Origin: Campylobacterota bacterium
GTDB taxonomy: Bacteria > Campylobacterota > Campylobacteria > Campylobacterales > Nitratiruptoraceae
DNA: 35,591 nucleotides
Direction: 5' to 3'
Assembly: GCA_009659895.1 (NCBI GenBank)
Contig: PUXX01000062.1
Span: 1-35,591, forward strand
Positions 13,148 to 15,555 of this stretch are shown here, in pieces. The position numbers were made by a program, and so were the translations under genes. Under the pieces are notes generated by a model. The model ran no database searches. It was not told the origin of the DNA and saw nothing but the letters and a program-made list of their open reading frames with translations. How positions within the stretch are numbered: position 1 is the stretch's first letter; each line of letters starts with the position of its first letter.

Positions 13148-14200
13148 TTAATTCATATCATCCATGACACTTGCCGCTTTTTTGAGCCTCTCTTTGTCAA
13201 AATGGGTATAGATCCTAGAGGTATCCAGGCTGGCGTGGCCTAGCGCTTCTTGGACTAGGACTAGATCTTTGCTTTTGTTGTAGAGGAGGGTGGCGAAGGT
13301 ATGGCGAAGCATATGGGCACCGTTTTTTTCCTTGCGAATGCCGGCGCTCTTTAGGATCTGCTCGACGATCCTGCTCACATAGGCTTGGGTGAGGGGAGCC
13401 CCTTTTTTATTGCAAAAGAGCAGATCTTCTTCGCATCGCCTTTTGACCATCCACTCCTCTAAATCATTTTTGATATGTTTGGATTTTATCATAACTACTC
13501 TTATTTTATTCCCTTTTCCCGTTATTTTGAGAAGATAGACATCATCTTGTGGTTCAATGTCTTTGAGCCGTAGATGGATCGCTTCGCTTACCCGTATGCC
13601 CGTATAGAGTATGAGTTTGATCAAGGCTTTGTTTCTAGCGGCTACATCACTGCGAAAAGGGTAGGTGTCGATGGCGCGCAAAAAGGCTTTGATCTCCTCT
13701 TCGTTCATAAATACCGGAAGTTTTTGGCCAGCTTTGCCTTTGAGGCCGGCCCAATTCTTGAGCTCTATATCGAAATGGTGGCCGTCCTCATTGTTTTTGT
13801 CTATATATTTGAAAAAGTTTATCATGGCTATGCGATAGTTCTTTTTTGTAGCGTCACTCAGACCGCCGGTGGTGGAAGCCAAAAAGTCGATGATGAGCTC
13901 TTCGTCGATCTCTTCCATGGAGGCCACACCGTAGCGGCACAAAAAGCTATAGAGCTTCTCCAGGGGTTTGTAGTAGGTATTGATGCCGATGAGTCCGGCA
14001 TTTCTGGCTCTCTTTGCCAATTGTGTGAGCTCATTTATTGAGCTCGTGCCCAAGGAGAGCTTTTGGATCACGTCAAAAAGCTCCTCCTGATCCTTGAGCT
14101 GTCTGTTTGAGAGTGATGTGAGTTTGTAGCGCATGTAGCGCTCCATCCAAAAGCGCAGCGTATCGCAAAAGGACTCTTTGAAATTGAGAGGATATTTCAT
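13148..14200 (-). CDS. xerH: XerH-type tyrosine recombinase (chromosome dimer resolution)
   Basis: XerH is the single Xer recombinase of Campylobacterota; it resolves chromosome dimers at a dif site. The 350-residue product has the N-terminal arm-binding domain (RNAGLIGINTYYKPL, LSDATKKNYRIAMINFF) and a full catalytic set: Arg203 (TGIRVSE), Lys229 (GKGNK), His296 and Arg299 (AHMLRH), His322 (LGHAS) and nucleophile Tyr331 (SRIYTHF). NGAHMLRHTFATLLY and KDLVLVQEALGHASL match my memory of Campylobacter XerH closely. I chose ATG 14200 (MKYPLNFKES), with AGGAGT 4 bases upstream. The frame is open further up, but that stretch contains promoter and dif-like sequence. Confidence 0.95.
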   Translation of the reverse strand: MKYPLNFKESFCDTLRFWMERYMRYKLTSLSNRQLKDQEELFDVIQKLSLGTSSINELTQLAKRARNAGLIGINTYYKPLEKLYSFLCRYGVASMEEIDEELIIDFLASTTGGLSDATKKNYRIAMINFFKYIDKNNEDGHHFDIELKNWAGLKGKAGQKLPVFMNEEEIKAFLRAIDTYPFRSDVAARNKALIKLILYTGIRVSEAIHLRLKDIEPQDDVYLLKITGKGNKIRVVMIKSKHIKNDLEEWMVKRRCEEDLLFCNKKGAPLTQAYVSRIVEQILKSAGIRKEKNGAHMLRHTFATLLYNKSKDLVLVQEALGHASLDTSRIYTHFDKERLKKAASVMDDMN

Positions 14201-14255: not shown

Positions 14256-14282
14256 GATTCGATCGGTAAAATTGATTTAGTA

Positions 14283-14302
14283 TTGAAAACTATAATTTTC
14301 AA
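14283..14302. other. dif-like Xer recombination site (candidate difH)
   Basis: A perfect 7-6-7 inverted repeat, TTGAAAA-CTATAA-TTTTCAA, lies 82 bases upstream of the xerH start. Two inverted half-sites around a 6-base asymmetric centre is the architecture of Xer target sites. The arms extend imperfectly outwards: AGTATTGAAAA on the left against AGTTTGAAAA on the complementary right, with one base inserted. In Campylobacterota the site is often near xerH (recalled). The alternative is a chance palindrome in AT-rich promoter DNA, as CTATAAT also resembles a -10 box. Confidence 0.55.
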
Positions 14303-14348
14303 ACTTTCATTTTTTTAGCGATGATACCCTTTTGATCTTTTCGTAAGT

Positions 14349-14437
14349 GAACTTGTGTTAATATTGAGATGAACAAACGTTAATATCTTGTCGTTGTAAT
14401 TGTGAACGGTTGTTAACTTTAATGTGAACAGTCGTTC
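14349..14437. promoter_or_regulatory. Four-copy operator array upstream of the tetR gene
   Basis: Four 12-base sites of the form GAAC-N4-GTT(A/C) occur in one orientation: 14349-14360 GAACTTGTGTTA, 14371-14382 GAACAAACGTTA, 14404-14415 GAACGGTTGTTA and 14426-14437 GAACAGTCGTTC. The last is a perfect inverted repeat. Centres are 22, 33 and 22 bases apart, close to whole helical turns, so all face the same side of the DNA. A possible promoter (TTGTAA 14394-14399, 18-base spacer, TTTAAT 14418-14423) overlaps the two right-hand copies. Autorepression by the downstream TetR protein is the natural reading; that is inference. Confidence 0.72.
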
Positions 14438-14457
14438 TTTTCTTTGGTGGAGGTCCC

Positions 14458-15075
14458 ATGAATTCGACACTTTCTAAAAACAGATCGACAAAAGAGAAGA
14501 TCTTGGATGCCGCTATGGATCTGATGGCTCAGTATGGTTATAATGGAGCCTCAATGAGAAAAATAGCCAAGATCGTGGGAATCAGAGAGAGTGCTATCTA
14601 CAACCATTTTAAAAACAAAGAGGAGATCTATGCCCACATTTTACAAAATCTCTTCTCTACTCCCTTTGATGACTTTTTTGAAAAGAAGCCTCCTGAGGAG
14701 TTTGCAAAAAGAGGCAGAAGATACTTGATGGAGTATGTGGCTACCTTCAAGCTCTTGGCTTTTGATCCTAAAAACGAGAAGCTTTTTCGTATCATTATGC
14801 AAGAGCTCATGCAAAATCATACCGTACGAGAGCGGTTTTTAAAGGCCTTTTACGAAGAGAATATCAAAAAGCTCTCAAATGCCTTTTTTGTAATGATGCA
14901 AGAAAATCTTATCCGCTCCGCAGATCCGATCCTCATGGCCCAGGAGTTCTTCGCTCCCCTTTTGTACTATAGGATCCAAATCACTCTCCTTCGTCTTGAG
15001 AACCGCCCTACCTCATCGCTCTCCACTGTCTTTGAAAAGCATGTCGATTTTTTCTGGGAAGGGGTGGCCCTATGA
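14458..15075 (+). CDS. TetR-family transcriptional regulator
   Basis: A 205-residue repressor-type protein. The N-terminal TetR DNA-binding domain is clear: TKEKILDAAMDLMAQYGYNGASMRKIAKIVGIRESAIYNHFKNKEEI (about residues 11-57). The rest is a helical ligand or dimerisation domain with no recognisable subfamily signature. The ATG at 14458 has GGTGGAGG upstream. The four repeated operators just before the gene suggest autoregulation. Neither neighbour, xerH or the SAM methyltransferase, suggests a target pathway. The operator pattern loosely recalls fatty-acid-responsive TetR proteins such as DesT (from memory), so a lipid ligand is one guess; an efflux regulator is another. Confidence 0.92.
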   Translation: MNSTLSKNRSTKEKILDAAMDLMAQYGYNGASMRKIAKIVGIRESAIYNHFKNKEEIYAHILQNLFSTPFDDFFEKKPPEEFAKRGRRYLMEYVATFKLLAFDPKNEKLFRIIMQELMQNHTVRERFLKAFYEENIKKLSNAFFVMMQENLIRSADPILMAQEFFAPLLYYRIQITLLRLENRPTSSLSTVFEKHVDFFWEGVAL

Positions 15076-15555
15076 TTTTTGGGCTACCAGGAGCGCTTTG
15101 GTCTTAAAAAGTTCATAATGTAAAATCTCTAGCTCCAAAAACTCTTGCAAGAGTTCGTTTTTTGCCAGTCTGTATTGTGGATTGATTTTGGAGTGGTAGG
15201 TAAAGGTCTCATAGATAAGGATCCCTTGGGGCTTGAGGGATTTGATGATCTTGGGGTGGATGGATCGAAGCAAAAAATTGAAACAGACAATAAGATCGTA
15301 TTCGCCAAAAAGAAACTCCTCTATATTGCAGCAAAAGGTTGTCACTCCCCTGCTTTTAGCCTTTGATAGAGCTATCTTTGAGATATCGACACACTCGACC
15401 TCAAATCCTTTTGAGGCCAAAAACTTTGCATTTTGTCCCATACCGCAGGCGATGTCCAAAGCTTTACCCCTCTTGGCCAGATGGTAGAACCGCTTGAGGT
15501 GTTCGTTGACTTCGGGTAAAGATGCGTGGAGGTACTTTTTATCCCACTTGTTCAA
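15070..15555 (-). CDS. Class I SAM-dependent methyltransferase
   Basis: A 161-residue methyltransferase, small for the class and similar in plan to TehB-like enzymes. Motif I is KALDIACGMGQNAKFLASKG (about 31-50), motif II VECVDIS, and the post-motif region YDLIVCFNFLLR and LKPQGILIYETF. The N-terminus WDKKY is common in this group. The substrate is unknown. The start is TTG at 15555, inside the end of the upstream gene (17-base overlap), so translation is likely coupled. It converges with tetR and overlaps its end by 6 bases. Confidence 0.85.
   Translation of the reverse strand: MNKWDKKYLHASLPEVNEHLKRFYHLAKRGKALDIACGMGQNAKFLASKGFEVECVDISKIALSKAKSRGVTTFCCNIEEFLFGEYDLIVCFNFLLRSIHPKIIKSLKPQGILIYETFTYHSKINPQYRLAKNELLQEFLELEILHYELFKTKALLVAQKS

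Follow-up and report, generated by a model that had tools for sequence, protein, structure and literature searches.

A phased TetR operator array beside dif in Campylobacterota, a candidate chromosome-address system at the replication terminus

Two proteins of the TetR family, SlmA and RefZ, are regulators of FtsZ (PMC4117426, PMC6657595). SlmA is responsible for nucleoid occlusion in E. coli, whereas RefZ, involved in septum placement in Bacillus subtilis, has a small set of near-palindromic motifs whose chromosomal positions are conserved (PMC6657595); its role is in sporulation, and the five motifs are found on both chromosome arms and near oriC, with no array at dif. Two further systems are tied to the replication terminus, namely MatP, with matS sites over about 800 kb, and ZapT, annotated as MerR-type; neither is of the TetR type, MatP being a ribbon-helix-helix protein. 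The portions of the literature covered by our searches, which included nucleoid occlusion in Helicobacter and Campylobacter, describe no nucleoid-occlusion or terminus-organising factor in Campylobacterota. We analysed a stretch of 35,591 nucleotides (35.6 kb; contig PUXX01000062.1, hereafter the window) from a member of the Nitratiruptoraceae, in which difH, the chromosome dimer resolution site at the replication terminus, is followed by an array of four helically phased palindromes, predicted operators, and then by a gene for a TetR-family protein (tetR). Like MatP and ZapT, this protein is tied to the terminus, and like SlmA and RefZ it belongs to the TetR family. Our literature searches returned nothing on a TetR gene beside dif, nor any description of a TetR array associated with difH as well as with the classical dif. 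The elements of the locus are as follows.

13148..14200, minus strand: xerH, for single-recombinase chromosome dimer resolution, 350 amino acids from the ATG at 14200, with Phage_int_SAM_6 and Phage_integrase domains
14277..14305, plus strand: difH site TTAGTATTGAAAACTATAATTTTCAAACT, the sole match in the genome, where the GC skew changes sign
14349..14360, plus strand: predicted operator 1, GAACTTGTGTTA, the weakest of the four, without the R..Y inner pair
14371..14382, plus strand: predicted operator 2, GAACAAACGTTA
14404..14415, plus strand: predicted operator 3, GAACGGTTGTTA
14426..14437, no strand assigned: predicted operator 4, GAACAGTCGTTC, a perfect outer palindrome, with the tetR ATG 20 bp further on
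14448..14453, plus strand: ribosome-binding site TGGAGG of tetR, as read from the sequence
14458..15075, plus strand: tetR, 205 amino acids, TetR_N at residues 15-60 and a weak AefR-like C-terminal domain (Pfam)

A reading of the sequence alone had proposed four GAAC-N4-GTT(A/C) sites in front of tetR, and all four are exact matches to GAACNNNNGTTM, with centre spacings of 22, 33 and 22 bp. The array is far from a chance occurrence, since its component words are scarce (GAAC occurs 46 times and GTTA 24 times on the plus strand of the window), AAC-N4-GTT is found four times in the window, each time as an array site, and a close site pair exists only at this locus in the whole 1.39-Mb genome. 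The sites had been taken to lie all in one orientation; each is in fact an imperfect palindrome, and what asymmetry remains amounts mostly to which half ends in A and which in C, hence the appearance of a single orientation. The interval proposed for the array (14349-14437) contains the sites and ends short of the left neighbour, difH, about 45 bp before the first operator. This site and the terminus location had been overlooked, and they change the likely function. The stretch 14277-14305 is contained letter for letter in the published 40-mer difH of Nitratiruptor SB155-2 (PMC2731167, Table 2), and xerH adjoins difH as published for that organism (PMC2731167), so that the window carries the XerH/difH module of epsilonproteobacteria, with the difH core beside xerH at the switch in GC skew and the array lying between difH and tetR.

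We compared 85 tetR loci, with orthologues taken from the same genus, from genome contigs and from a class-wide sample (44-73% identity to the window protein). Upstream AAC-N4-GTT palindromes number four in 60 loci, three in 20, two in 4 and none in 1, some of the lower counts being due to loci cut near the gene; a single 16-bp palindrome, ATGAACANNTGTTCAT, is common to 84 of the 85, which for the most part have three or four copies in array. The sequence-only reading would have fallen had the repeats not been conserved beside tetR orthologues; they are, and they stay with the gene even where its neighbours change. Pooling 307 sites from relatives gives the full unit as a 16-bp dyad, ATGAACA/G-NN-T/CGTTCAT. 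Neighbouring sites are spaced at 21–22, 31–33, 42–43 or 63–64 bp, that is, at whole helical turns, with a sole exception of 10 bp, and fit a period of 10.45 bp (resultant 0.955). The number of turns varies between lineages; the phase does not. In G009, a closed genome of a relative, the array has lost one of its four sites to decay. The conservation of the palindrome alongside tetR marks it as the predicted operator of the TetR protein, and its persistence despite changing neighbours makes autoregulation and the loading of several dimers on the same face of the DNA probable.

The genes flanking the array vary by lineage (xerH, rnpB, murA and others), and those downstream of tetR are mostly convergent and equally lineage-dependent. 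We could therefore reject the array as a part of rnpB or xerH, as it stays with tetR when those neighbours change, as well as a neighbouring target operon. In six Sulfurimonas-type loci (L063, L072, L073, L075, L083 and L097), rnpB, which encodes the RNase P RNA, is divergent and upstream of the array; where the classical dif was found among these (L063, L072, L083 and L097), rnpB sits between it and the array. In the window, a methyltransferase gene (15070-15555, a weak TehB match) converges with tetR; it is kept in several Nitratiruptor loci and not in others.

The link to dif extends well beyond the window. Each of the 16 difH-type genomes that have TetR carries an exact difH core at most some 300 bp from the gene, in either orientation relative to the array. 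Sulfurimonas, Sulfurovum and their relatives have a different, classical dif, with XerC/XerD; of 25 evaluable genomes, those with dif and tetR or the array on one contig (at least two with separate contigs were left out), 20 have this dif at most 2.1 kb from the array or tetR, and all 25 have it at most 100 kb away. The genome set may contain a few repeats, as G018 and G065, identical in their coordinates, probably represent a single genome. The order dif–array–tetR is constant under these two unrelated recombination systems, with tetR reading away from dif, and all 12 closed genomes place tetR 45–54% of the way round the chromosome from dnaA. Vent and sulfur-oxidising Campylobacterota share this arrangement, which suggests that the protein reads chromosomal position, perhaps as a cue for the timing of cell division, and is not an ordinary drug or lipid switch. 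Two side observations concern its distribution: the Sulfurovum-type genome G028 has two dif-plus-array places (C117:7743-8161 and C124:1146-1313), from either a strain mixture or a real duplication, and six genomes of the window's genus (G002, G003, G004, G007, G008 and G013) have neither a close TetR orthologue nor a difH match.

Single operators are also present far from the array in most genomes with TetR, and are much scarcer in relatives that lack it. A search of eight closed genomes with the strict pattern TGAACRNNYGTTMA identified 37 copies outside the array, in seven of the eight, with 0-11 per genome. In six of these genomes the correct spacer gave 31 isolated copies vs about 7 for each other spacer length. 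The excess also follows the protein: among 150 genomes sampled from the class, to which a rank test was applied, operator hits (those of the array counted) numbered 181 in the 22 with TetR and 71 in the 128 lacking it, and a reversed-pattern control showed no rise in the 22. According to open-reading-frame calls, genes contain 34 of the 37 isolated sites. None lies in the nearest 37% of the distance from terminus to origin (Kolmogorov-Smirnov test, p = 2e-8), whereas wrong-spacer control sites are near uniform (p = 0.16); three further genomes (G081, G015 and G102, chromosome lengths rounded) gave 19 isolated sites, with none in the nearest 29% (p = 0.006). The recurrent sites are in thyX (near dnaA), ilvD and recJ, and many others do not recur. 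The sequence-only reading had allowed for an autoregulated switch with a genome-wide regulon, but we rejected a promoter regulon, as all other operator matches in the window's genome lie within open reading frames. In G009, the only other close pair found (C1:1224902-1224946, 33-bp spacing) sits where a fliM-like flagellar switch gene begins.

The window protein combines an N-terminal TetR_N helix-turn-helix (PF00440, E = 2e-15) with an all-helical C-terminal domain; its AlphaFold2 model has the all-helical TetR fold (confidence measure pLDDT, predicted local distance difference test, 91), and Foldseek matches it to TetR proteins. Its top NCBIfam model is RefZ (NF037937, E = 4e-13), at 49.7 bits vs a cut-off of 180, and the SlmA model (NF007015) gives 25.7 bits vs a cut-off of 120; by these cut-offs it is a member of neither family. 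Searches by solved structure and by fold gave generic TetR repressors and singled out no one family. A consensus promoter scan found no forward tetR promoter. The layout of the isolated operators, mostly in coding sequence and avoiding the terminus, resembles that reported for SlmA sites, the differences being that the densest cluster here, a four-site array before the protein's own gene, is at dif, and that isolated strict sites are few (0-11 per genome) and absent from G001 and G010. We take the operator itself to differ from the SlmA motif.

Taken together, these data lead us to favour, with moderate confidence, a terminus-linked module built on an autoregulated TetR chromosome-address protein that would couple chromosome layout to division or segregation. 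Most likely, from the phasing of the sites, the TetR protein binds all four operators from the same side of the helix; it would repress its own promoter and, loaded cooperatively, build with the array a nucleoprotein patch next to dif. It may also bind, in most genomes, a handful of single operators, mostly intragenic and origin-proximal, and would read the origin–terminus axis much as SlmA or RefZ does. We consider this reading the most likely because the isolated sites are laid out much as for SlmA and the top match is RefZ, both being FtsZ regulators. One might speculate that the layout is relayed to FtsZ, and contacts with FtsZ, FtsK or the Xer recombinases are conceivable.

Several of our results weigh against this interpretation. 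Both the RefZ and the SlmA scores are far under the family cut-offs, MtrR nearly equals the RefZ score, and the closest structural matches of the model are other TetR repressors. At dif, a pure nucleoid-occlusion inhibitor would require the very reverse of a four-site cluster. In 5 of the 25 classical-dif genomes dif is 12–99 kb from tetR or the array; in one locus (L106:5998-6585), where the neighbour genes are opposite to the usual orientation, a TetR orthologue has no upstream operator palindrome; and in G001 and G010, which keep TetR and the array, we found no isolated strict site. The terminus bias was first noticed in the eight genomes and then tested in the three others, and the isolated sites are partly non-independent, since common ancestry accounts for the copies in thyX, ilvD and recJ. 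The codons under the isolated sites are not clearly conserved, G009 retaining 3 of the 6 operators present in the window's genome (p = 0.10). Finally, a matrix scan of G009 alone placed its top hits on the origin side with a borderline excess, which 3 of about 60 permuted matrices equalled.

It could be argued that the protein is a plain autoregulated repressor and that its linkage to dif is hitchhiking, as symmetric inversions around the origin–terminus axis keep terminus genes at the terminus. The array is the sole multi-site cluster in most genomes, the fold resembles that of many ligand-binding repressors, the gene stays opposite dnaA in the closed genomes, and two genomes do without isolated strict sites, all of which such a repressor would accommodate. 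We nevertheless regard this explanation as unlikely, if well short of negligible. Hitchhiking could account for part of the positional conservation by keeping a rough distance to the terminus, but not easily for an adjacency of 0.1-2 kb to two kinds of dif amid neighbour turnover, and it leaves unexplained the isolated operators that track TetR and avoid the terminus; nor does any target operon recur beside the gene.

The constancy of the array can also be read as the mark of a positive anchor between terminus and divisome, comparable to MatP or ZapT, in which the cluster would hold dif at midcell and the origin-side sites would be secondary. This alternative has to be taken seriously, since the isolated sites, absent from some genomes, are less constant than the array at dif. 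MatP, however, works through many sites over its broad domain, whereas here the array stands alone at the terminus and the sites away from dif avoid it; for ZapT, of another protein type, no consensus motif was found. We therefore consider an anchor rather improbable. Less probable still, and in our view a distant candidate, is an accessory factor of Xer recombination, whose complex with the array would align dif sites or impose resolution selectivity, as PepA and ArgR do at the plasmid sites cer and psi. The short gap between difH and the first operator in the window and the fixed order dif–array–gene would suit such a role, but dif and the array are separated by anything from less than 0.1 kb to 2 kb, and by as much as 99 kb at the extreme, difH is found in both orientations, the same array accompanies the unrelated XerH/difH and XerCD/dif systems, and the isolated sites would again be left unexplained.

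In so far as the chromosome-address interpretation holds, we tentatively regard it as new to the literature searched: an address or division-coordination system for Campylobacterota, with a phylum-wide array beside dif under two dif/Xer systems, single operators marking the origin side, and one protein reading the whole origin–terminus axis. Regulators tied to a chromosomal address would be rare, and an array that stays by dif while the recombination system and the neighbours change would provide one such case. SlmA and RefZ would also be joined by a third member of the TetR family in which the repressor fold serves to read chromosome position, and the array provides specific candidate binding sites that are directly testable in non-pathogenic vent bacteria.
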